Assembly: GCA_945878725.1 (NCBI GenBank)
Contig: CAMCTY010000001.1
Coordinates: 1-64,000, forward strand
Reading direction: 5' to 3'
DNA from: Bifidobacterium breve
GTDB lineage: Bacteria > Actinomycetota > Acidimicrobiia > Acidimicrobiales > Acidimicrobilacustridaceae
DNA length: 64,000 nucleotides
Below the pieces are notes generated by a model. That model saw only the letters and a list, made by a program, of their open reading frames with translations. It did not search any database and was not told the DNA's origin. Of the stretch, positions 11,285 to 30,285 are shown in pieces; position 1 is the first letter of the stretch, and every line of letters starts with the position of its first letter. The position numbers and the translations under genes were made by a program.

Positions 11285-11460
11285 TGGCGCTGATGTGTGG
11301 TTCGGTTGATCCACAACACAACCCGCCGCCGTGGGGAAAGCCGGTCTAATTCCGGCGCTGACCCGCAACCGTAGGTGACTGTTCTAGGAAGAGATCGGGC
11401 CGGAAATTCCGGGGCGTTCGGTTCCTGGGGGGTCGCAAGCCGGAATGCCCACGATTGGCG
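11285..11460 (+). promoter_or_regulatory. Cobalamin (B12) riboswitch
   Basis: The actinobacterial form of the B12 box is visible: GGGGAAAGCCGG (11333-11344), then TTCCGGCGCTGACCCGCAAC (11350-11369), and downstream CGCAAGCCGGAATGCCC (11434-11450), matching the conserved core helices and the later A-rich internal element of cobalamin riboswitches. It lies immediately upstream of the DUF4430-ecfT-ecfA-ecfS operon, so B12 should repress the operon. Outer boundaries are approximate. It is on the opposite strand to, and just upstream of, the oxygenase gene. Confidence 0.9.
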
Positions 11461-11516
11461 GGACGCTCCATCACAAAACCGTCGTCGGATTACGGGAGGT
11501 GGGGCTCGGGCCGGTC

Positions 11517-11533
11517 GGCGGGTGATTCCCGCC
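11517..11533 (+). promoter_or_regulatory. Hairpin in the riboswitch expression platform
   Basis: GGCGGG (11517-11522) and CCCGCC (11528-11533) form a 6-bp GC stem with a 5-nt loop between the aptamer and the GTG start at 11590. It may be part of the ligand-controlled switch, but no competing pairing was worked out. No U-tract follows, so translational control seems likelier than termination. Confidence 0.4.
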
Positions 11534-11589
11534 TGCATCCGGGGTCGGGTCCTGACGCCCGTCCGGTTTCCCGCCCGAAGGAATCGCTC

Positions 11590-12483
11590 GTGCCCATCTC
11601 CACCAGGTTCCCGAATCGCCGCCGGTTCGGCGCGTTGGGTTTCTGGATGGCGCGTGTCGGGCTGGGTGCAGTTTTCACCGCCGGCCTCATCGGGCTCGGT
11701 TCGGTAGGCGGATTGCCGAGTGCATTCGCAGATTCGTGTGGGGGCCCAGTCCCGTCCGGTTCGGTTCGGGTCGTGATGGTCGTCGACGCCGGCGAGACAT
11801 CGGCCGGTGCGTCATCGGTGTGTCTCGTTGTCCCGTCCGGAACGACAGGCTCGCAACTTCTCGCTCGTAGGGCCGCTGAACTCGGGATGGCCTCACCTCG
11901 TTACGCAGGCAGCGGACTGTTGTGCGCGATCGACGGTTTCCCGGCGACGGGATGTGGCGATCGGACCTCAGGTGGATTCGCCTACTGGGCCTATTTCAGT
12001 GGCACGTCGGGCGCATGGAACTACGGCAGTTACAACCCGTTTATTCGCCGCATGGCCGACGGAGACATCGAGGGATGGCGGTATGTCTCCGGTACCGGCG
12101 GCGCACAGGATCCGCCGCCGCGCATTGCCCCGTCGCGATCTCTCTTTCCTCCGTTGGTGCTCGACTCGGTTCCCGTTTCTCCGGCAGGTGATTCCGGATC
12201 AGTTCCAACTACGGCATCAAGGCCAGGTGCATCGGGTGGCGCGAATGCTCCCGCTGATATCGCGGCGGGTACCACCGACGGGGGAGAGGTCGCCGATGGC
12301 GCCAAGAGTGTCACGGGTGCATCGGACTCAATCGCCTCTGGTCTCGTCACCGATGACGTCGTGATCGTGGCGAGCTCGTCGGGCGGAAGCGGAGTGGCCC
12401 CGTGGCTCGGCGTGGGTGTGACCATGCTCCTTGCGGTAGCGCTCGGTCTCGGCGCCTTTGTTCGCACGAGGAGTCGATCGTGA
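11590..12483 (+). CDS. Secreted, membrane-anchored transcobalamin-like (DUF4430) protein
   Basis: First gene of the riboswitch-controlled operon, 297 residues. A signal peptide ends around LPSAFA|DSCGG (near residue 47). A DUF4430-like module covers about residues 55-165, with VVPSGTTGSQLLARRA and GGFAYWAYFSGTSGAWNYGSYN, a fold related to the beta domain of transcobalamin and intrinsic factor. A Ser/Gly/Ala-rich stalk follows, and a C-terminal membrane helix (VGVTMLLAVALGLGAF) ends in RTRSRS. It probably captures corrinoid outside the cell and presents it to the ECF importer; that role is inferred from the domain and operon. Start GTG 11590 has AAGGAA 6 nt upstream. Stop overlaps ecfT by 4 nt. 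Confidence 0.82.
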   Translation: MPISTRFPNRRRFGALGFWMARVGLGAVFTAGLIGLGSVGGLPSAFADSCGGPVPSGSVRVVMVVDAGETSAGASSVCLVVPSGTTGSQLLARRAAELGMASPRYAGSGLLCAIDGFPATGCGDRTSGGFAYWAYFSGTSGAWNYGSYNPFIRRMADGDIEGWRYVSGTGGAQDPPPRIAPSRSLFPPLVLDSVPVSPAGDSGSVPTTASRPGASGGANAPADIAAGTTDGGEVADGAKSVTGASDSIASGLVTDDVVIVASSSGGSGVAPWLGVGVTMLLAVALGLGAFVRTRSRS

Positions 12484-13601
12484 CGGGTACCAGTGTTCGG
12501 CCGAGGCGCCTTCTGCACCCAGGCGCGTGGTGGATCTGGTCGATCGCACTCGCAGCGGCAGCCCTTAGGACGACGAACCCGCTCCTGCTCGGGCTTGTTG
12601 TCGTTGTAACGGCATTTGTTGTCGCGTCGCGCCGGAGTGATGCTCCGTGGGCACGTTCGTTTGCAAGCTTTCTCCGGCTCGGTGTGATCGTGATCGCGAT
12701 TCGACTCGTGTTTCAGATCCTCTTCGGAAACCGAATCCCGGGACATACGCTTTTCACAATTCCCGAGTTGACGCTGCCGGATTGGGCTGCGGGAGTCAGC
12801 ATTGGTGGGCCAGTCACCGCCGAGGCGATTGTCGGCGCGATCTATCAGGGACTCCGGCTTGCTGTGGTGCTCGCTTGTTTTGGCGCGGCGGCATCACTGT
12901 GCAGCCCCTATCGACTGTTGCGCGCGCTTCCATCGGCTCTTTATGAAGCGGGTGTCGCGGTAACCGTTGCACTCACGTTTGCACCGCAGGCGGTGATTGC
13001 CGCTCGGCAAGTTCGCGACGCGCGTCGACTTCGTGGTCGATCGGAGCGTGGCGTTCGGGCTTGGGCGGGATCAGCCATGCCAGTACTCGAGGGAGCACTC
13101 GATCGAGCCGTGGCGCTTGCCGCATCGATGGACTCCCGTGGCTACGGCCGTCACGGCGATTCGCCAATCTCGTTGCGTCGAGCCGGCAGCGTGCTGACGC
13201 TTTTCGGAATCGCTTGCATCGCCGTCGGGTGTTACGGCATCCTCGACCCAGGTGCTCCGGCAATCCTGCGATTGCCAGCGCTCGGACTCGGTGCCGTAGC
13301 GCTAGTCGCCGCCCTTCTCCTCGGCGGCCGGAGTCATCACCGGTCGCGCTATCGACCCGATCCGTGGGCCTCGGCGGAATGGATCGTTGCGCTGAGCGGG
13401 GTCGCCGCATTCGTTGGGATGGTCATCGCCGGCCGAAATGGTTCCGGACTTGATCCTTCCGTGTACCCGCTCGAAATCCCGCCGCTTCCTGCGGCGGCCC
13501 TCATCGGCATTCTTTTCGCCGCCCTTCCTGCTTGGGCGGCTCCGATACCTCCTTCGTTTGCGTCGGTGGCCGTTCCTACAGGGTTGGAAGTGGCGGCATG
13601 A
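12480..13601 (+). CDS. ecfT: ECF transporter transmembrane coupling subunit (EcfT)
   Basis: Transmembrane coupling component (EcfT/CbiQ fold) linking the ATPases to the substrate-binding subunit of an energy-coupling-factor importer. 373 residues with about eight hydrophobic segments. The cytoplasmic coupling region shows QVRDARRLRGR and the second Ala/Ser-Arg-Gly motif SMDSRGYGR. The C-terminal extension has three more membrane segments. GTG 12480 overlaps the previous stop (GTGA), with GAGGAG 6 nt upstream. Its stop overlaps the ATPase start (ATGA). Confidence 0.88.
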   Translation: MTGTSVRPRRLLHPGAWWIWSIALAAAALRTTNPLLLGLVVVVTAFVVASRRSDAPWARSFASFLRLGVIVIAIRLVFQILFGNRIPGHTLFTIPELTLPDWAAGVSIGGPVTAEAIVGAIYQGLRLAVVLACFGAAASLCSPYRLLRALPSALYEAGVAVTVALTFAPQAVIAARQVRDARRLRGRSERGVRAWAGSAMPVLEGALDRAVALAASMDSRGYGRHGDSPISLRRAGSVLTLFGIACIAVGCYGILDPGAPAILRLPALGLGAVALVAALLLGGRSHHRSRYRPDPWASAEWIVALSGVAAFVGMVIAGRNGSGLDPSVYPLEIPPLPAAALIGILFAALPAWAAPIPPSFASVAVPTGLEVAA

Positions 13602-15238
13602 TCAGGTTTGATCACGTGTCGTTTACGTATCCGGACGCGACGCGTCCGACGCTCTTCGATCTTGATTTCGAGATTCCCGAAGGTGAACTGTGCCTGGTCA
13701 TCGGATCGACGGGAACCGGAAAGTCGACGCTCCTTCGGGCGATCAACGGGCTAGTTCCGCGGTTCTCGGGCGGACTGCTCACCGGACGCGTGACCGTCGA
13801 CGGACGTTCCACCGAGTCGGTTCCTCCTCGCGAGTTGGCCGACGTCGTTGGCTTCGTGGGTCAGGATCCGGCAGCGGGCTTCATCACTGACATGGTGGAG
13901 GATGAACTCGCTCATGTCATGGAAAATCTCGGTGTCGCTCCTGACGTGATGCGCCGCCGCGTGGAGGATGTGCTCGATCTCCTCGGGCTTCACGAACTAC
14001 GCAACCGGCCACTCGCCACTCTCTCCGGTGGACAACAACAACGTGTTGCCATCGGAGCTGTTCTCACGGCGGGACCGCGAATCCTGGTGCTTGATGAGCC
14101 CACCTCTGCCCTTGATCCGGCGGCAGCCGAAGAGGTACTCGCCGCCCTAACCCGACTGGTCCACGATCTTGGAATAACCGTGGTTGTCGCAGAACACCGA
14201 CTTGAGCGCGTAGTCCAATACGCCGACCGTGTCGTCATCGTTCCCGGCGCAGGTGAGAGAGTGATCGTGGGACTTCCTGCTGAGGTGCTCGCTGATTCTC
14301 CTGTCGCCCCGCCTGTTGTTGAGCTCGGGCGACTTGCTGGTTGGTCGCCGCTGCCGCTGTCGGTCCGTGATGCACGCCGTTCGGCGCCGATGCTGCGAGA
14401 GCGCCTCGCCCCACTGGCTCCGCATGTTTCCGATCAACTGGTCAGGTCATCATCAACCGAACCAATCGCACGGACAACTGATCTCCACGCTGGATACGGT
14501 CCGGTCACCGCGTTACGCGGGATCGACATGGCGGTCCATGCTGGCGAAGTCGTTGCGATCATGGGTCGCAACGGTGCCGGCAAGTCCACACTCCTCGCGC
14601 ACCTTGTCGGGCTCCGTGAACCACTTCGGGGCGAGGTGCTGGTGCAGGGTCGCCAACCTCATCGACTCTCGGCGCGCGATGTCGTGCGTTCGACGGGACT
14701 TGTTCCGCAGGACTCGGGCGTGTTGCTGTATCACGACACCGTTGCTGCGGAATGTGCCGCGGCAGATCGTGACGCCGATCTTGCGCCCGGAGCGACCCAG
14801 ACAGTGCTCGATCGACTCGTGCCCGGCATTGATCAGCGTGCCCATCCCCGTGATCTCTCGGAAGGGCAGCGTCTCAGCCTTGCTCTCGCGATCGTGCTCG
14901 GTGCCGAGCCCCCGTTGGTGCTGCTCGATGAGCCAACTCGCGGGCTCGACTACGCCGCCAAGCAACGACTCATTGCGATTCTGCGCGATCTTGCTGCGGC
15001 CGGTCACGCGGTGGTGTTGGCCACCCACGATGTAGAAGTTGTTGCGGCGGTCGCTGACAGGGCAATCGTCCTTGCTGATGGTGAAGTGGTGGCCGATGGT
15101 CCTGCGCGCAACGTGGTTGTTCACTCGCCCGTCTTTGCGCCGCAGGTCGCAAAGGTTCTCGCTCCCGAACCGTGGCTCACCGTGGCTGAAGTCTCGAGGG
15201 CCCTTGATCTGCTCGCCGGTTCAGGTGCGTCAGCATGA
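13598..15238 (+). CDS. ecfA: ECF transporter ATPase, two fused ABC domains (EcfA-EcfA')
   Basis: A 546-residue protein with two complete nucleotide-binding domains, powering the B12 importer. Domain 1 has Walker A GSTGTGKST (near residue 35), signature LSGGQQQR and Walker B ILVLDEPTSALD. Domain 2 has GRNGAGKST (near 320), a degenerate signature LSEGQRLS and LVLLDEPTRGLD. Fusion of the two ECF ATPases into one chain is common in actinobacteria. The ATG overlaps the ecfT stop, and its own stop overlaps the S-component start. Confidence 0.9.
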   Translation: MIRFDHVSFTYPDATRPTLFDLDFEIPEGELCLVIGSTGTGKSTLLRAINGLVPRFSGGLLTGRVTVDGRSTESVPPRELADVVGFVGQDPAAGFITDMVEDELAHVMENLGVAPDVMRRRVEDVLDLLGLHELRNRPLATLSGGQQQRVAIGAVLTAGPRILVLDEPTSALDPAAAEEVLAALTRLVHDLGITVVVAEHRLERVVQYADRVVIVPGAGERVIVGLPAEVLADSPVAPPVVELGRLAGWSPLPLSVRDARRSAPMLRERLAPLAPHVSDQLVRSSSTEPIARTTDLHAGYGPVTALRGIDMAVHAGEVVAIMGRNGAGKSTLLAHLVGLREPLRGEVLVQGRQPHRLSARDVVRSTGLVPQDSGVLLYHDTVAAECAAADRDADLAPGATQTVLDRLVPGIDQRAHPRDLSEGQRLSLALAIVLGAEPPLVLLDEPTRGLDYAAKQRLIAILRDLAAAGHAVVLATHDVEVVAAVADRAIVLADGEVVADGPARNVVVHSPVFAPQVAKVLAPEPWLTVAEVSRALDLLAGSGASA

Positions 15239-16083
15239 CGGACGTGAGCGTGCGGGCTGATCGATCCGCCGTCTCCGCTGTTGCACTCCGTCCCCGTTCA
15301 TGGATGCTTTTGTTTGTCGCATCGCTTCTGGGGATCATCGCGTTCGGCTGGCCGCTTTTCGCAGGTGCCACAAGTGCGGCTGATCTCGCCCACACTGGCG
15401 ATGCGCCGTGGATCTTTGTGATTCTGGTTCCCCTACTACTCGGTGTGATCTTGGCCGAACTCGCCGAAGGATCGCTCGACTCGAAGGCGATTGCGTTGTT
15501 GGGTGTTCTTGCGGCGTGTGGCGCAGCGCTCCGACTTCCTAGTGGCGGCGTTGCCGGATTCGAGCCGGTGTTCTTCTTGCTTATTCCCGCGGGCCGGGTG
15601 CTCGGTCGCGGTTTCGGATTCGTCCTCGGAGCCCTCACACTTTTCGTGTCGGCTTTGTTGACCGGAGGCGTGGGGCCTTGGCTTCCGTTCCAAATGTTCG
15701 GCGCCGCGTGGATCGGATTCTTCGCCGGGTGCCTGCCACCCTTGCGCGGTCGGGCTGAACTGTGGATGTTGGCGGGCTACGGAGCCGCATCTGCCCTTGC
15801 CTACGGACTGGTCCTCAACCTCTGGTTCTGGCCTTTTGTTGTCGGCGGCGAAACGGCAATCTCCTATGAGGCCGGAGCTGGGTTTACGGAGAATCTTCAG
15901 CACTTCTGGGCGTTCCACATCTCGACATCGTTCGGCTTCGACATTCCTCGGGCGGTGTTCACCGCAGTGTTCATGCTGATCGCCGGCCGACCCGTCCTCG
16001 GCGCCCTCCGTCGGGTGTCGCGCCGGGCTGCGTTCGGAATGGCAGTCGAGTTCGATTCCAGCCCGGATCTCGTCGGCCGCTGA
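15235..16083 (+). CDS. cbrT: ECF transporter substrate-binding (S) component, cobalamin type
   Basis: Membrane-embedded S component expected to bind vitamin B12; 282 residues with six or so hydrophobic segments (first about 22-42). The block RVLGRGFGFVLG followed by LLTGGVGPWLPFQMFGAAW resembles actinobacterial CbrT-type S components. The cobalamin riboswitch and transcobalamin-like first gene support B12 as substrate. The start overlaps the ATPase stop by 4 nt. The gene symbol is a family-level assignment. Confidence 0.83.
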   Translation: MTDVSVRADRSAVSAVALRPRSWMLLFVASLLGIIAFGWPLFAGATSAADLAHTGDAPWIFVILVPLLLGVILAELAEGSLDSKAIALLGVLAACGAALRLPSGGVAGFEPVFFLLIPAGRVLGRGFGFVLGALTLFVSALLTGGVGPWLPFQMFGAAWIGFFAGCLPPLRGRAELWMLAGYGAASALAYGLVLNLWFWPFVVGGETAISYEAGAGFTENLQHFWAFHISTSFGFDIPRAVFTAVFMLIAGRPVLGALRRVSRRAAFGMAVEFDSSPDLVGR

Positions 16084-16150: not shown

Positions 16151-16321
16151 ATGACAAAGCGAGTGTTCGTAACCCGGCGACTTCCGGAACCTGGTTTCCG
16201 GCAACTTCTTGATGCAGGAATCGAGGTTGTCGTCAATGACGAGGATCGTCCGGTGACGAAGGACGAACTGCTGGCTGGAGTCTCGGGTGCCGATGGAGTG
16301 ATCGCAATGCTCACGGATCGA
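16151..16321 (+). pseudogene. 2-hydroxyacid dehydrogenase, 5' fragment
   Basis: The first 57 codons match the N-terminus of D-2-hydroxyacid dehydrogenases of the glyoxylate/glycerate reductase type: KRVFVTRRLPEPGF, then ADGVIAMLTDR. Homology ends after DR at about 16321; the frame stays open to 16393 but then reads antisense through the FAD-oxidoreductase fragment. The NAD fold and catalytic residues are missing, so it cannot be active. The break coincides with GATC at 16316-16319. Confidence 0.75.
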
Positions 16322-16324
16322 ACG
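16316..16324. other. Breakpoint joining two truncated genes (junction 1)
   Basis: The 9-mer GATCGAACG is the point where the plus-strand 2-hydroxyacid dehydrogenase 5' fragment and the minus-strand FAD oxidoreductase 5' fragment meet, both reading inward. The identical 9-mer lies at the second breakpoint (33082-33090). The cause may be deletion, rearrangement or an artificial join. Confidence 0.7.
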
Positions 16325-16596
16325 GAGAAACTCATCTCACTGTGCTGGCTGGGAACGTTCAGCCTCTCAAGCAGTTTGATGAAGTTGGGATAGTTGCGTT
16401 CGTTGAACACGATGAAACCGGTATCGACGGCGACCGAAACCGGATTTCCGAATGCATCAGGCACAGTCACGTCGACGGTGTTGGTATGTCCCCCCGGTCG
16501 GTCATTGTTTTCGAAAACGGTGACATCGTGATGGGGATCAAGTAGATGGGCGCAGGTGAGTCCAGCGATTCCCGAGCCGATTATGGCGATCTTCAT
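16318..16596 (-). pseudogene. FAD-dependent amine-oxidase-like protein, 5' fragment
   Basis: About 92 codons match the N-terminus of NAD/FAD-dependent oxidoreductases of the amine oxidase family: KIAIIGSGIAGLTCAHLL (FAD Rossmann motif), ENNDRPGGHTNTV, DTGFIVFNERNYPNF and MSFSVR. Homology then stops at the GATC breakpoint; the open frame continues antisense through the ECF S-component gene and is not real there. The start overlaps the upstream SDR stop by 4 nt. In other bacteria this protein is followed by DUF1365 and a CFA-synthase-like methyltransferase, both absent here. Confidence 0.78.
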
Positions 16597-17603
16597 GATG
16601 GTTGAGGACCGGAACCACTGTTCTCTTCACACCATTTCCAGAGACGAGCGCGCTCGCCGGCCGGAGCGGATGTCCCGGGGAATTTGGTAATGCTCCGTCG
16701 ATGACGATCGAGCCAGAAACCGCCTCCCACGCCAATGAGGCCTTCGTCGGCAGCGGCCAGCCACACGAGTGTGTCGGCCCCGGCATCAGGCGATCGCAGG
16801 ACGGGTTTGGTCACGGTGTGGAACCGGGGGAGCGAGTGCTCGACGCCTGGTGTGTCTACCCAACCGGGATGCATTGCGTTGAACAGCACACCCGTCCGGC
16901 ATCGTCGCGTCCATTCGGCGTTGAGTTCGACCTGTGCTCGTTTTGCTCTGGCGTAGGCGCGCACACCGTTGTAATCATCGGGGGTCATGACGAGCGTGTC
17001 GACATTGAGCCGCTCCGAATACATGCCGCCGGACGCAATGGTTATAACGCGACCAGCAACGGGTCCTGCTTCCAATGCCGGAAGCAGCAACGACGTGAGC
17101 AGAAACGGCCCCAGCACTTGGGATGCGATGGTCATCTCGATGTCTTGGGGTGACAGCGCATACGTCGGAGATAGTGCGCCAGCGTTGTGTACCAGCACAT
17201 CGATGGATGCGTGTTGTGTCGTTATTTCGGCCGCGATCGATCGAACCGCTTCGAGGTCTCCCATGTCCGCAGTACTCGTGTGGACAATCGCACCTGAGTT
17301 GCGCAGCGCTGATGCAGTGGCGTCGACTCTGCCGGGATTGCGGCCAACGAGATGCAACGTCGCTCCGAGTTCACCGAGTCGAGTTGCCGCGGCAAGTCCG
17401 ATTCCTGAGGTGAAACCAGTGAGGACAACGACGCGGCCGTCGAGTCGCGGCAGTGGGTTGGCGTCCCATGCCTCAAGCCGCTTGCGCACGGCGAAACCGA
17501 TCGTGCTCCAACTGGGGGCTATCACCGCCTCCAGAACCGCATCGCTGATCGCCGCGAATGCTCGTTGGATGCCTTGTTGATCTGAAATCGACGGGAGGGT
17601 CAT
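16593..17603 (-). CDS. SDR-family dehydrogenase (DHRS12-like)
   Basis: A 336-residue short-chain dehydrogenase/reductase with an N-terminal extension of about 55 residues. It has TGFTSGIGLAAA (cofactor loop), DVLVHNAG, catalytic Ser in TIASGGMY and YARAK (YxxxK). This is the SDR type usually found upstream of the FAD amine-oxidase-like gene, DUF1365 and a CFA-synthase-like methyltransferase. Here the FAD gene is coupled by an ATGA overlap but cut short. It follows the B12-binding regulator by 20 bp on the same strand, so co-transcription is likely. Confidence 0.85.
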   Translation of the reverse strand: MTLPSISDQQGIQRAFAAISDAVLEAVIAPSWSTIGFAVRKRLEAWDANPLPRLDGRVVVLTGFTSGIGLAAATRLGELGATLHLVGRNPGRVDATASALRNSGAIVHTSTADMGDLEAVRSIAAEITTQHASIDVLVHNAGALSPTYALSPQDIEMTIASQVLGPFLLTSLLLPALEAGPVAGRVITIASGGMYSERLNVDTLVMTPDDYNGVRAYARAKRAQVELNAEWTRRCRTGVLFNAMHPGWVDTPGVEHSLPRFHTVTKPVLRSPDAGADTLVWLAAADEGLIGVGGGFWLDRHRRSITKFPGTSAPAGERARLWKWCEENSGSGPQPS

Positions 17604-17623: not shown

Positions 17624-18463
17624 TTAGGAACTTGTGCGGATGCGTGCTTCGGCGAGACTGTCGAAGGCTTGCATCATCGCGGTCGATGACGACGTGACGA
17701 AATCGGCACCGAGGGATTCTGGATCTTCCATTTCGACGAGCGCATGACCGCCAAGGACCACCGGACAGTTGAGTTCGGAATGGACCAGCGAGATTATTTC
17801 GCTGATTGCCTCGGCATTAGGTCCGGTCGTGGCGCTGATGCCCACGGCGATCAGGCGGTCGGCGTGACGGGCGGCATCGACGAATGACTCGGCAGGGGTG
17901 TTTGCTCCGAGATCAAGGACATCGAAACCCTGACCACGAAGGAGATCGGCAGCCATAGCTCCGGGGACGCTGTGCTGATCGCCAGACGGAGCGCCAATGA
18001 TCACGGTGCCGCGCTTTTTGCCTGCCCGATTGAAGTGCGGACCAAGTCTGCCGATGAGTCGGAGAGCAACAGCGGTGGCCCGGTGTTCTTCGGCAATGGT
18101 GGCGCGTCCGGCCGCCCATTCGGCGCCGATCTGAGCAAGAGCGGGGGCGAGTACATCGAGATAGATCTGGGCGGGCTCGACCCCTGCGTTCAGAGCGGAT
18201 TCGATGACCGTCCAGGCGCCGCCTTCGTCGCCGATCACGAGACGGGCTTCGAGCCGCTTGTGGAAATCGGCCTTCGGGCGGCCGTTTGTCGCTGACGGAG
18301 CCGGCCCCTTCCGGAACGAGTCGACATCGGCGGCGGCCACGCGCCATTCGCCACCGACCTTGATCGCCGAGAGCTGCCCAGTGCGGACATACCGATAGGC
18401 GGTCATGTAGTGAACGCCGAGACGGGTGGAAGCCTCGGTGAGGCTGATCAGTTCATCTGGCAT
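17624..18463 (-). CDS. CarH/LitR-like B12-binding transcriptional regulator
   Basis: A 279-residue predicted cytosolic DNA-binding regulator. Residues 4-52 are a BldC/excisionase-type helix-turn-helix (LISLTEASTRLGVHYMTAYR, then a wing GGEWRV). Residues 68-145 form the helical B12 cap, with W116, E126 and H127 giving the exact W-x9-E-H pattern of CarH photoreceptors. The Rossmann B12-binding domain follows, with H164 in GDQHSVPG as the likely lower axial ligand, then GADFVTSSS. It probably represses DNA in the dark and releases it when light breaks the Co-C bond. Start ATG 18463 is chosen over the longer open frame (to 18697) because the HTH begins there. Confidence 0.85.
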   Translation of the reverse strand: MPDELISLTEASTRLGVHYMTAYRYVRTGQLSAIKVGGEWRVAAADVDSFRKGPAPSATNGRPKADFHKRLEARLVIGDEGGAWTVIESALNAGVEPAQIYLDVLAPALAQIGAEWAAGRATIAEEHRATAVALRLIGRLGPHFNRAGKKRGTVIIGAPSGDQHSVPGAMAADLLRGQGFDVLDLGANTPAESFVDAARHADRLIAVGISATTGPNAEAISEIISLVHSELNCPVVLGGHALVEMEDPESLGADFVTSSSTAMMQAFDSLAEARIRTSS

Positions 18464-18606
18464 GGGCTGGCACCGCCTCTCGTCCGGATCGTTGGGGACT
18501 ATCCGGTTCAGGAAACGCGAATTCGCCCGGGTGACTGACATGAACGCTACCGGCCCACGTTTCCGGGAGCCCGGTCGGACGACGATCGCGACGCCGTTTT
18601 GCCTAC

Positions 18607-19287
18607 TCAGCGACGGCGAAGACGGGTCATGACGGCAGGAACCGACGCCAGAATCTCGGCTTCGAGGTTGGATTCGAGCCAATCCCGATTGCGGCAATGC
18701 AGATCGTCGGCAGGGTCGAAGCGGTTGAGCACCACGATCGGCGTCGCCACGTGTGAGCCCCGGTCAATGGCTTCAAGCGTGAGGCGAATCGAATTGATGG
18801 TCCCGAGACCGGCATCGGCAATGACGAGGATCAGATCGGGTTGAAGCGCCTCAATAAGGGTGATGGCGTCGCCGTCGGCGGCCTGAGGAGAGCGCACTCC
18901 GCCGGCAGTCTCGACCATGCCGACGTCAGGGATGAGCACGGGCCACGAAAGTTCGTCGACAAGATCGGCGATGGTGAACGGCGCACGACCGAGCGCTTCG
19001 GCGGCCATCGGAGGCGCCATGGGCACGGGATACCAACGATGTCGGGGTGAGACATCGGCTGGATCTTCGCCGCTTGCCTCTGCGAGCACATGGGCATCGG
19101 TCAAGCGGTCGCCTGGATCGAATGACTGGACCGGTTTCCGAGCAGCGACATCGAAGCCTTCGGCGCGCAGATCGCGAAGCAACCGGGCGGCGACCCAGGT
19201 CTTGCCGACTTCGGTGCCAGTGCCGACGACGACAACGAGAAGGTGCGGCCGAAATTTCGAGGTTTCCATTTCCCGCGAACTGCTCAT
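18607..19287 (-). CDS. bioD: Dethiobiotin synthetase BioD
   Basis: ATP-dependent carboxylase that closes the ureido ring of DAPA to give dethiobiotin. The P-loop is GTGTEVGKTW near residue 22, with ARKPVQSFDPGD after it, and MVETAGGVRSP matches the conserved E-x-AGG motif. 226 residues, normal. The start overlaps the bioF stop by 4 nt. It is the last biotin gene of the ABC1-bioA-bioF-bioD set; 143 bp without a recognisable feature separate it from the regulator gene. Confidence 0.92.
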   Translation of the reverse strand: MSSSREMETSKFRPHLLVVVVGTGTEVGKTWVAARLLRDLRAEGFDVAARKPVQSFDPGDRLTDAHVLAEASGEDPADVSPRHRWYPVPMAPPMAAEALGRAPFTIADLVDELSWPVLIPDVGMVETAGGVRSPQAADGDAITLIEALQPDLILVIADAGLGTINSIRLTLEAIDRGSHVATPIVVLNRFDPADDLHCRNRDWLESNLEAEILASVPAVMTRLRRR

Positions 19288-25743: not shown

Positions 25744-28700
25744 ATGGCATCAATCTCCACTTCTCCTCGCATCCGCCCCCTTCTCCTTGGCATCGCGGCC
25801 GTAGGCGTTTCGATCGCGATGTTGGCATCAAGCTGCACAAGCTCGGACGATTCGCGATCGCGTTCGGCCGGAGCTGCCGCTGGAAATCCGATTGATCTTC
25901 CGGCACTTCCGTCTGGTTCAGGTTCCGGTGAGCGCGTGCCTCTGTGGTTCGGAGCGACAGTCGCTCCCGACACGTGGGTTTCGAGTTCACTCTCGCCGAC
26001 CCTTGTCGTTCCGGGGGCAACTGGCGCATGGGACTTCACCGTCACCGATCTCTCGGGGGGTACGTCAACCTTCGGTTCGAAGCAGTTCAAGGAGAATGGT
26101 GCAAGTGCGCGCATTCCCCTCGGAACCCTGAATGATCGACAGGCGTACACCTGGACCGCAACTAGCGCGGGGCAACAATCGGTTGCTGGCACATTCTCGG
26201 TAGATACGCAGCTTTCCGATGTACAAGATGTCGACACGGTCGGCGGGGTCGCCACCAGTCTCTCGTCGGGCGAAGCGTCCTTCTCGTGGTCATCGCATGC
26301 GATGCAGTCGCTCGGCGGTTCGGTCGGCATCGGCCTCCAGTTCCAAGGCTCGAATCCTGTGGATTCGGGAGTACCGGCGGGCTGGAAACTTCTGTCGTCG
26401 AGTGGCAGCGGCTACGTGTCAGTCGTGACGCGCGAGGACGGCAGTATCGGGCTTGTCTCGAAGAACGGTCAGGTGTCGAACTACCGCGAGGGAGCAGGCG
26501 GCTCGTGGGATGCAGTCAAACTGTCGGGTGACTCGCTCGACACGTCGGGTCTGGCTCCTGTGATCATTGCCAATCCCGACAAGTCGTGGTCCGTGACAAC
26601 GAAGGGATCGACATCGACCTTTGTTGATGACAACGGCGACGGCACCGCGAACTTGAGCGGCGTCTCTAGCGACGGCAAGCCGATGCTGCAGCAGAACTGG
26701 GACGGTGGGTTACTTCGTTCGATCACCGATCCAGTCTCGGGGCGTTCTCTCGATCTTGTCTATGGCGGCGGCTCGTGTCCGAAAGCGGCACCTGGGTTCG
26801 TGGCCGCTCCGAAGGGCATGTTGTGTCAGGTGAAGTTCTGGGACGCCTCGACCAGCTCAATCTCCTACGTTGCCCTTGCCGACGGTTCGGTGTCGATCGG
26901 CCGGATGGCTGACTTTCCGGAGGCCGGTGCCGATGGTGCGGTGGTCTTCGATGTGGCGTACGACGCTGCAGGTCGCATTGCCCGTACCCGCTCGCCGCTT
27001 GTTGCAGTTGCGGCAGCTTCGAATCTGATTCCGTCCGACGATTCTGCCTACTGGTCCGAGATCCTCTACACACCCGAAGGTCGAGTGCTCACCGCAACGG
27101 AACCCGCGCCGTCAGTGGGTGGCACCCGTTGTACGCGGACCTACCGCAACGAGGGATCGCAGACGACAGTGAACGACGGTTGCCTTGGACGCGACCTCGG
27201 AACCGTAACGTTCGATTCCACGACGTTCTTTGCCCTGCGAGAGAGCAACGTGCTTGGACAGGAGCGAGTCAGCACCTGGAACTTTGCGTCGGGCGAGTTG
27301 CTGTCGGTCAGCGATTTCACGGGCCTCGTTACGGCCAATCGCTTTGTCAACGGCCTCCTGGTCGAGACCAGAGGCCCGGCGCGCGAGACGGGCGCGGCGC
27401 AGTCGACACTTCGTCAATACGACGAGTCCTACACAGACTCCGCTGAAGGGATCGCCATGCGCGGTCTCGACGTCACCTACTGGCCTTCGGCCACAGAACG
27501 TGGCGACAATGCCATTCAGGAACTTGGTCCGATTATGGGTGGCACCTTGGCACCGTCACTGACCCTCAACTGGGATTCGTCGCCGGCGGGTAACAACGCA
27601 GGCTGGTCTGCACTTATGACCGGCGCGCTCACGATTGGTCAGGCTGGTTCGTACCGATTCGAGTCCGGGAACACGAACGCGAAATTGCGCGTAGCAAATA
27701 TTGCCTGTGAAAACGGTGGATGCGATGCCGTATCACTGCCGGCCGGGCCGGTTTCGATTCGGGTCGACGTGTCGTCGGCCGAATCGCGTTCGTCAATTGA
27801 TCTGACCTGGGCGGGTCCGGACACCGGCGGTGGCTCGCAGTCGATTCCGACCGATCGTCTCGGACCGCAGTACGGCTACGCCACCGAGATGAATGTGGTC
27901 GATCCGAATGCGGTGCGGTCCGGCGTCGAGAATATTTCCCGATCGTCCTATTCGAACCCGGCAACCGGCTTGCTGACATCGCGTGTCAATGGTGCCGGTT
28001 CCGTTTCGAAGGTGACGTATGAGTCCGCAGGTTGGAACCGGGCTCTGGCGTCCACGCTGCCGGCAGGGAACGTGCTGCAATCCACATGGTGGGGCGACAA
28101 GGAAGCAGCTGCAGCGCCCTGCGCCGGCGCGAAGAAAGTTGTACAAGCCGGAGCATCGAAGAACTCAATCACCCCGGGCCCGGATGGTGCTGACGGACCT
28201 TCGGCACAGCAGTGGTACACGGCGTCAGGGCGAATCGCCGCGACTGCGATGAGCGGCGGTGCAACTCAGTGCATGACCTATGACTCGGCTGGTCGGATTC
28301 TCTCGACCGAGACGCTGAACATGGGGAGGGTCACCAAGTCCGTGTACGACTACGCCGTCGGTGGCAATCCGTTGATGTCCTCGGTGACGGCGACACTTGG
28401 TTCCGAAGTCACCACGATCTCAGTCGAAGTGGATCTCGCTGGTCGCACGGTTCAGACGATCGATCCGTTCGGGGTGATCATCTCGAAGACTTATGACACC
28501 CGTACGGGACTGACCGCATCGACGACGACGACAGCCCCAGGGTCGGCTCCATCGGTCACGACGAACACCTATGACAAGTTCGGTCAACTCGAGTCGCTTG
28601 CGATTGACGGTCGAACAATGGCAACCGTCAACTACGACGGTCTTGGTCTACCGGCCACGGTGACCAACGGAAATGGCGTCACCTCGACATTCGGTTACGA

Positions 28701-30285
28701 CAACTCCGATCGGCTCATCTCTGCTGTACGCAAGGCAGGCAACGGGGGGAATTTCACCTCCAGTCGCGTGCTTTCCGCGGGTGGATCGACGTCGCAGGCG
28801 ACCGTTGCCGCCAACGGTCGAACCTCGACGTTCGATTACACGCATGACGCATCAAGCCGACTCTCGGCGGTATCGGTGAGTGCCGGGCTTGTGCCGGAAC
28901 AGAAGTCATGGGAGTACACCTACGACGCCAACTCGAACCGGTCGACGCAGAAGCAGTCAGTGAACGGCGTTGCCTCGTCGAGTTACACCTATTCGTACGA
29001 TTCGGCCGATCGACTCACGAAAACAAACGATCCGACTGCGTCAGACGCGATTGTGTACGACAGTCGCGGTAACGCGACAACGTTGGGGTCCAACACGTTT
29101 ACCTACGACGCGTCGAATCTTCTGGTTGAGGTCTCTGATGGAACCATCACAATCGGCTACGACCGCGATGTCAACGGTTCGATCTTCTCGAAGCGCACAA
29201 CCGTCGCCGGTGCCACAACCACAGTTTTTTACGCCGCCGGTGGCGTCATTCTTGATGAGGAGAAGCGCCCCGTCGCACAGATTATGACGTTGCCTGGTGG
29301 TGTTCTGTTCACCCGATCGGTGACACCTGCGGTTCCGAATCGGTGGGACTACACCACGATTTCGGGCGACCGGTTCTTCTCCACGGATGATGCCGGATCG
29401 CTGACCGGAGACGTTTCGGTATTCGATCCGTTCGGCCAGTTGCTCACCGCGCCGACTCCCGCGAATCCGGCGCTTCCCGATCTCTCGTGGCAGGCCGCGA
29501 CAGGTAACGAAACCGCGGCCCTGAAGGTCGCGATCGTCGTGATGGGATCGCGTGTGTATGTTCCCGCTCTCGGCCGGTTTATCCAACTCGATCCGGTTGC
29601 CGGCGGTTCTGCTAACGGCTATGACTACGCCAACCAGAGCCCACTCGCAATGTCCGACCCCTCAGGTGAGGCGGCAGGGGATCCCGGTTGGAGTAACTGG
29701 CTGGGGATGGGTCTCGTAGCTATCGCCGGTGTGGCGGGCAGTCTTCTGACGCCGGCATCGTGGGGCCCGAAAGCTGCAATGATGATCGGCAGTCTTGTGG
29801 GCTTGATGGCCGGTGTTGCGAACGTCGGGGTGCAGCTTGCCACTGGCACAGCTTCGGTCGTCGATATCGGGACGTTGTTTGTGGGCCTTCTGGCCGGAGT
29901 TGCCGGCGGTTCGATCATCGGCAAGATCCGATGGGCCCGTTATCAGAAGTCGCTTCCTGAGAACATGGATCTGGTTGACTTCGTTCTGAACGAAGCGAAG
30001 TTTTCCAAGTCCGCCGGAATAACTGGAAGGGGAGGAAGCGGGGGGGGATATACGAGTTCAAACCTCGCTACGGTCCGCACAACAGAACGCGCAACGGTGA
30101 GGCCACCGTCGGGCGCCCAGGCCCCGGTGCAGCCCGGCGCGGCGGCCATCGGACGTGCACCTTCGGTATCGCCGGTCGCCGCCCCGGTTCGGAGTCGGCC
30201 GCCAACGTATCGTCCTGCGTCAGGGATTTCTGGAGAAATGGACCCCGTCATGATGAAATTCGTCAGGAGACTTCTCGAAAAGTAA
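25744..30285 (+). CDS. Large RHS/YD-repeat lipoprotein with PA14-like domain
   Basis: A 1513-residue exported protein. The N-terminus has a hydrophobic helix and lipobox-like ASSC (Cys about residue 31), followed by a Ser-rich linker. Residues 60-560 hold beta-rich modules I do not recognise. About 570-690 resembles a PA14 domain (GLDVTYWPS, then GSYRFES and SIDLTWAG). About 780-1260 is made of YD repeats (YDSAGRI, YDKFGQL, YDASNLL). The RHS core ends near 1300 with LGRFIQLDPVAGG and MSDPSGE. A hydrophobic stretch (about 1312-1395) and a Pro/Ala-rich tail end the protein; no toxin domain was recognised and no immunity gene follows. Adhesin or secreted shell is likely. Confidence 0.85.
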   Translation: MASISTSPRIRPLLLGIAAVGVSIAMLASSCTSSDDSRSRSAGAAAGNPIDLPALPSGSGSGERVPLWFGATVAPDTWVSSSLSPTLVVPGATGAWDFTVTDLSGGTSTFGSKQFKENGASARIPLGTLNDRQAYTWTATSAGQQSVAGTFSVDTQLSDVQDVDTVGGVATSLSSGEASFSWSSHAMQSLGGSVGIGLQFQGSNPVDSGVPAGWKLLSSSGSGYVSVVTREDGSIGLVSKNGQVSNYREGAGGSWDAVKLSGDSLDTSGLAPVIIANPDKSWSVTTKGSTSTFVDDNGDGTANLSGVSSDGKPMLQQNWDGGLLRSITDPVSGRSLDLVYGGGSCPKAAPGFVAAPKGMLCQVKFWDASTSSISYVALADGSVSIGRMADFPEAGADGAVVFDVAYDAAGRIARTRSPLVAVAAASNLIPSDDSAYWSEILYTPEGRVLTATEPAPSVGGTRCTRTYRNEGSQTTVNDGCLGRDLGTVTFDSTTFFALRESNVLGQERVSTWNFASGELLSVSDFTGLVTANRFVNGLLVETRGPARETGAAQSTLRQYDESYTDSAEGIAMRGLDVTYWPSATERGDNAIQELGPIMGGTLAPSLTLNWDSSPAGNNAGWSALMTGALTIGQAGSYRFESGNTNAKLRVANIACENGGCDAVSLPAGPVSIRVDVSSAESRSSIDLTWAGPDTGGGSQSIPTDRLGPQYGYATEMNVVDPNAVRSGVENISRSSYSNPATGLLTSRVNGAGSVSKVTYESAGWNRALASTLPAGNVLQSTWWGDKEAAAAPCAGAKKVVQAGASKNSITPGPDGADGPSAQQWYTASGRIAATAMSGGATQCMTYDSAGRILSTETLNMGRVTKSVYDYAVGGNPLMSSVTATLGSEVTTISVEVDLAGRTVQTIDPFGVIISKTYDTRTGLTASTTTTAPGSAPSVTTNTYDKFGQLESLAIDGRTMATVNYDGLGLPATVTNGNGVTSTFGYDNSDRLISAVRKAGNGGNFTSSRVLSAGGSTSQATVAANGRTSTFDYTHDASSRLSAVSVSAGLVPEQKSWEYTYDANSNRSTQKQSVNGVASSSYTYSYDSADRLTKTNDPTASDAIVYDSRGNATTLGSNTFTYDASNLLVEVSDGTITIGYDRDVNGSIFSKRTTVAGATTTVFYAAGGVILDEEKRPVAQIMTLPGGVLFTRSVTPAVPNRWDYTTISGDRFFSTDDAGSLTGDVSVFDPFGQLLTAPTPANPALPDLSWQAATGNETAALKVAIVVMGSRVYVPALGRFIQLDPVAGGSANGYDYANQSPLAMSDPSGEAAGDPGWSNWLGMGLVAIAGVAGSLLTPASWGPKAAMMIGSLVGLMAGVANVGVQLATGTASVVDIGTLFVGLLAGVAGGSIIGKIRWARYQKSLPENMDLVDFVLNEAKFSKSAGITGRGGSGGGYTSSNLATVRTTERATVRPPSGAQAPVQPGAAAIGRAPSVSPVAAPVRSRPPTYRPASGISGEMDPVMMKFVRRLLEK

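Follow-up and report, generated by a model that had tools for sequence, protein, structure and literature searches.

A regulator gene in a 64,000-nucleotide stretch of DNA from a freshwater actinobacterium (the whole stretch is hereafter called the window) encodes a protein, REG, whose description as a CarH-type, light-signature B12 domain carried on a BldC/excisionase-type helix-turn-helix (HTH) is supported by the analyses below. Judged from its sequence, REG is probably a cobalamin-dependent photoreceptor and transcriptional repressor that would sit on a promoter palindrome in the dark with adenosylcobalamin (AdoCbl) bound and be released by light.

The REG reading frame (17624..18463, minus strand) is open and gives 279 residues from an ATG start. 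All three of its Pfam domains, encoded on the same strand, exceed their cut-offs. The HTH_17 (BldC/excisionase-type) DNA-binding domain (residues 6-50, 18314..18448, minus strand; 39.8 bits, gathering cut-off 27) is joined by a linker to a two-part B12 domain. The latter consists of a B12-binding_2 four-helix cap (residues 69-139, 18047..18259, minus strand; 47.4 bits) with G113xxW116 and E126-H127, and of a B12-binding Rossmann domain (residues 153-256, 17696..18007, minus strand; 51.6 bits) with G186xxxP190 and H164, the predicted lower cobalt ligand. The preliminary description had proposed an HTH_17/BldC-type head instead of a MerR domain, and this is what was found, with no match of REG to the MerR models of Pfam. 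The head also matches the NCBIfam "excise" model (TIGR01764) above its cut-off. The nearest solved HTHs are those of phage Gp37 and BldC (6ama), both weak matches (E about 0.8 for BldC). In the homologue alignments, the HTH helix V17-HYMTAYRY-25 is near-invariant and few stretches are as well conserved as the recognition region; since part of the homologue set was found through peptide seeds that included HYMTAYRY, the invariance of that stretch in the genome_contigs set is partly a selection effect.

An AlphaFold2 model of REG, built on an alignment of 70 homologues, has a mean pLDDT of 94.2, with a low-confidence linker at residues 55-60. Its best PDB fold matches in Foldseek are photocobilins, the B12 domain of CtMerR, and TtCarH, ahead of methionine synthase. 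By translation, Pfam and the model alike, the protein stops at residue 279, just past the B12 domain, and a bilin-binding globin-like domain is absent.

The light-responsive cobalamin signature, comprising GxxW, EH, GxxH and GxxxP, has been validated by experiment and crystal structure (PMC11796333). It is complete in REG as G113AEW116, E126H127, G161DQH164 and G186ANTP190. Together with the CarH-like fold of the model, this signature places REG within the SignatureFinder definition of a light-responsive cobalamin-binding domain. Nine residues separate W116 (codon 18116-18118) from E126-H127 (18083-18088), and H164 is encoded at 17972-17974. These four residues align without a gap on W156, E166, H167 and H204 of CtMerR (8jbs), the roles of which have been described (PMC11796333). 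Furthermore, G113, W116, E126, H127, H164, G186 and P190 do not vary among 91 homologues or in the 70-sequence alignment. Except for G113 and W116 in one of the six seeds, the signature residues lie outside the seeds, and their conservation is far beyond chance. The W116-x9-E126-H127 motif read from the DNA in the preliminary description is exactly placed, and its assignment of H164 to the lower-ligand position agrees with both the CtMerR alignment and the homologues. Its view of this motif as a mark of CarH has to be widened, as a W-x9-E-H-type motif also occurs in photocobilins and is not CarH-specific (PMC10979010).

The position of TtCarH H132, the bis-His ligand, is occupied by Ala117 in REG and by histidine in 4 of the 91 homologues. 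H132 is needed in TtCarH for the bis-His state and for monomerisation, so a CarH-style release is not guaranteed in REG. The second histidine is also missing from CtMerR and the photocobilins (PMC11796333); a light response without it is thus known, but CarH-style monomerisation should not be assumed for REG.

In an unrooted tree of B12 domains, 18 REG rows form one side of a branch (99/93), while 12 actinobacterial MerR-type proteins and TtCarH form another group (97/93); the photocobilins are nearest to REG. MetH, a long branch, and one wrongly framed row were left out of this tree, and the TtCarH sequence was taken from PDB alignments. An earlier tree in which the wrongly framed row and the long-branch MetH were misplaced was rejected. 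In sequence terms, the REG family is a clade separate from MerR-type CarH and common in Acidimicrobiia. REG scores 69.9 bits with the CarH equivalog model (NCBIfam NF052513), for which the cut-off is 400, and the match covers only model positions 79-267, the sensory part. By this test REG does not belong to CarH, yet it most likely works in the same way. The CarH-like identity first given to REG accordingly holds for its light-signature B12 domain, and we call it CarH-like rather than CarH because its sensory domain groups on the photocobilin side and has no equivalent of H132. That grouping could also mean that REG signals by a route other than DNA, like a photocobilin or in another way, with the HTH making protein contacts. 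This we hold to be very improbable, as the recognition region of the HTH is highly conserved and a candidate operator co-occurs with the gene.

REG was found in 33 of the 37 genomes of the window's family and, in a single-protein search, in 36 of 148 genomes of the class at the threshold used, a few being weak B12-domain-only matches. The genome_contigs set yielded 203 REG loci, of which the best 80 were kept; they reach Dormibacterota (L064) and the cultured Actinopolymorpha rutila DSM 18448 (L096), in which REG forms an operon with a photolyase gene. To our knowledge, every characterised B12 photoreceptor repressor has a MerR head. The literature examined makes mention of generic HTH-CBD fusions (PMC11796333), and no BldC-type family, operator or regulon was found in it.

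Within the window, a short-chain dehydrogenase (SDR) gene lies 20 bp downstream of REG (16593..17603, minus strand; Pfam adh_short, synteny) and is likely in the same operon. By synteny, it corresponds to the SDR of an SDR/FAD/DUF1365/CFA gene set seen in relatives. Its stop overlaps by 4 bp a truncated FAD/amine-oxidase-type gene (16306..16596, minus strand) of which only the first 97 residues are present; the gene is intact in the nearest relative, L030 (431 aa). At 16306-16345, this gene (minus strand, from 16596) and a hydroxyacid-dehydrogenase gene (plus strand, from 16154) are both shortened and joined to each other across some 13 bp. What is missing from the two was not found elsewhere in the genome, and the junction is either a deletion or an assembly misjoin. 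Upstream of REG, past an intergenic region of 143 bp (18464..18606, minus strand), lies bioD (18607..19287, minus strand; Pfam AAA_26, synteny), and the order bioA-bioF-bioD-REG is common to same-genus relatives. An ECF-type transporter cluster at 11455-16083, which stays near REG in relatives, comprises an SCO2322-family secreted protein (below cut-off), a CbiQ-like permease, a fused double ATPase and an S-like membrane protein; it is possibly an importer of a vitamin, perhaps B12. The window also holds a gene for a 1513-aa RHS-repeat protein whose N-terminus is lipoprotein-like (25744-30285), and its genome encodes methylmalonyl-CoA mutase, an AdoCbl user. Carotenoid or photoprotection genes linked to REG were met in relatives and not in the window itself.

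Unsupervised EM motif discovery was run on 67 sequences, of which 62 were non-coding regions upstream of REG and 5 were FAD divergent promoters, and returned a 12-bp palindrome, TTTAGYRCTAAA, with a log-likelihood of 144 versus about 40 for shuffled input. The motif from an earlier run had been rejected, as it proved to be the end of the coding sequence of a conserved gene upstream. TTTAGYRCTAAA was present in 5/5 FAD divergons scanned. Allowing at most one mismatch, 37 sites were found in 1.04 Mb of loci, as against zero in a single Markov-randomised copy; the majority are upstream of REG, of sigma-REG or of FAD/SDR/DUF1365/CFA operons.

The association was then examined in an evenly drawn sample of 148 genomes of the class, minus an AT-rich dwarf genus and a single genome whose REG is fragmented. 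Perfect sites occur in 19 of 32 REG-positive versus 3 of 81 REG-negative genomes (Fisher p=2e-10; p=2e-7 with the dwarf genus included), p-values that overstate certainty because the genomes are related and not independent. A reversed-pattern control had no association with REG presence in this sample (p=0.55). In the REG-positive genomes, 12 of the 23 sites fall within 5 kb of REG, where 0.08 would be expected.

The palindrome is missing from the REG promoters of most of the window's genus. In the window, a scan of the region 18464-18606, which the preliminary description had put forward as the DNA target, gave no TTTAGYRCTAAA with 2 or fewer mismatches, no informative inverted repeat and no RNA structure (z=0.21). 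The proposed target was therefore not upheld: no recognisable operator was found there, and the one strong site of this genome (G000) lies outside the window, at G000:C7:41174-41185. Absence of the palindrome at REG in the window's genus and in ImuA'/ImuB loci, along with a few REG-negative genomes that have sites, would fit an account in which another regulator binds TTTAGYRCTAAA and controls both REG and light-stress genes, REG itself having a different operator. We consider this improbable, since palindrome presence tracks REG and, in several genomes, the sites lie 45-120 bp from it, so that it is simplest to assume autoregulation through a site that co-evolves with REG.

The G000 site is the only one at no more than one mismatch in 2.26 Mb. 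SUMT/hemD is 84 bp away from it and is followed by hemB and an aminotransferase gene interpreted as hemL; the likely ATG of whiB is at a distance of 61 bp. A photolyase gene adjoins the site, and its own promoter is without one. In all 20 site loci inspected (those of G000, of 18 further genomes of the genus and of G035, which belongs to another genus), the site is part of a 15-bp conserved island between whiB and SUMT/hemD with diverged flanks; the same-genus genomes G009 and G010 have zero sites. One 12-bp site per genome, as is usual in the window's genus, makes for a sharp prediction. Elsewhere in the family, G033 has one perfect site in the promoter of REG, at a distance of 45 bp, and another in a divergent carotenoid promoter; the latter is flanked by polyprenyl synthetase-CrtI-CrtB on one side and by two lycopene cyclase genes and a hydroxylase-like gene on the other. 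In G027 and G029, a site lies just upstream of a glycosyltransferase-CrtO-REG operon. Carotenoid genes were thus found near REG or a palindrome site in all three genomes.

Neighbours within 5 kb of REG were counted in 79 loci with a called REG (78 relatives and the window). Genes were called with a codon-log-odds caller and identified by Pfam/NCBIfam on representatives, some cluster labels (e.g., HemH, Grx) being assigned by eye. ImuB (29 loci) and ImuA' (26) were the most frequent, followed by SDR (15), DnaE2 (12), CFA synthase (10), FAD oxidoreductase (10), DUF1365 (8), HemH (8), an RpoD-type sigma factor (8), Fpg (7), DPRP (5) and photolyase (4). In two loci, the REG and photolyase genes overlap by 4 bp. 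A Polyketide_cyc2/SRPBCC-like gene leads the SDR/FAD/DUF1365/CFA operon right after the palindrome at L107:7798-8310, L183:1553-1999 and L200:1515-1967 (Pfam on L107 only). In L196, L203, L204 and L205, the palindrome stands beside genes for fasciclin-type lipoproteins and a pair of ECF sigma and putative anti-sigma factors, an arrangement that we take to recall the mycobacterial SigK regulon.

Many Ilumatobacteraceae-type genomes have imuA' and imuB directly after the sensor gene, often with dnaE2 nearby. The TTTAGYRCTAAA palindrome is absent from the ImuA'/ImuB loci; in nearly all of them (e.g., L043, L103) another conserved element, TGCGTGACCGTGC, was found between a small upstream gene (c2) and REG. 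It is conceivable, though we would not count on it, that Acidimicrobiia and neighbouring phyla have a second lineage of B12 photoreceptor repressors, independent of MerR, and that this lineage controls a light-gated DNA-damage-tolerance operon in addition to pigments. If true, translesion mutagenesis would be switched by sunlight via vitamin B12.

These neighbours also bear on whether REG senses B12 availability or cofactor form instead of light. AdoCbl would then report cobalamin status, and REG would adjust heme/B12-precursor metabolism and that of the biotin neighbourhood. The sole G000 site at the SUMT/hemD-hemB promoter, that is, at the shared tetrapyrrole branch, and the nearby ECF-type cluster with its SCO2322-family gene are in line with such a role. 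Nevertheless, the light-signature residues are kept without exception, and in the relatives both the gene neighbourhoods and the palindrome sites involve photolyase, mutasome, carotenoid and LitR-regulon-type lipid genes, not B12 genes; we therefore regard a B12-status sensor as unlikely. Gene context and the shared palindromic candidate operator instead lend independent support to light-linked regulation.

As a light-released repressor, REG would hold AdoCbl base-off in the dark between the helical cap, whose W116, E126 and H127 would surround the adenosyl group, and the Rossmann domain, whose H164 would sit on the cobalt. We infer that AdoCbl binding would stabilise an oligomer whose BldC/excisionase-type heads grip the promoter palindrome TTTAGYRCTAAA directly. 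Green or blue light would cleave the Co-C bond and expel the adenosyl group, and the oligomer would loosen. The genes freed by light may include those for carotenoids, membrane-lipid modification, DNA repair and alternative sigma factors, as well as tetrapyrrole genes in the window's genus. A separate BldC-headed clade, with its predicted operator and small regulon, would mean that the B12 light sensor was put to use in transcription control on more than one occasion. The uncultured, little-studied Acidimicrobiia of sunlit freshwater and soil would gain a specific circuit for responding to light, and a compact switch for green light, paired with an orthogonal operator of its own, would become available.

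Among known systems, CarH/LitR (TtCarH, 5c8d) shares with REG the cobalamin domain with GxxW, EH, GxxH and GxxxP, an N-terminal DNA-binding head and, for the relatives of REG, a carotenoid and photoprotection gene context. REG differs in its HTH_17 head of BldC/excisionase type in place of MerR, in Ala117 in place of H132, in its distinct clade and in its candidate operator TTTAGYRCTAAA. CtMerR of Chloracidobacterium thermophilum (8jbs) has the ungapped four-residue match and likewise lacks the second histidine, but its head is of the MerR type (its N-terminus aligns to MerR-CarH) and it groups with the CarH clade. The photocobilins (SasPcob, 8j2w/8j2x; AbDPcob, 8j2y) are the closest relatives of the REG B12 domain by profile, fold and tree; they carry a bilin-binding domain, whereas REG has an HTH head.

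BldC (6ama) and other excisionase-type HTH_17 proteins resemble REG, weakly, in their small winged-helix HTH head of about 45 residues. BldC proper is a small stand-alone protein that binds head-to-tail direct repeats. It is without a sensory domain, whereas the REG head is fused to a B12 domain and the REG-associated site is a palindrome. Finally, the class II LitR regulon of Pseudomonas (PplR/PmlR) overlaps with the REG neighbourhoods in photolyase, SDR, FAD oxidoreductase and UfaM/CFA-type methyltransferase genes (PMC9758184). In P. mendocina, photolyase, SDR, FAD-oxidoreductase and ufaM genes surround the class II LitR gene, and phrB and ufaM are induced 25-33-fold by light (PMC9758184). 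Class II LitR differs from REG in having a LOV protein partner (PMC9758184) and, as a LitR/CarH-family protein, a MerR head.
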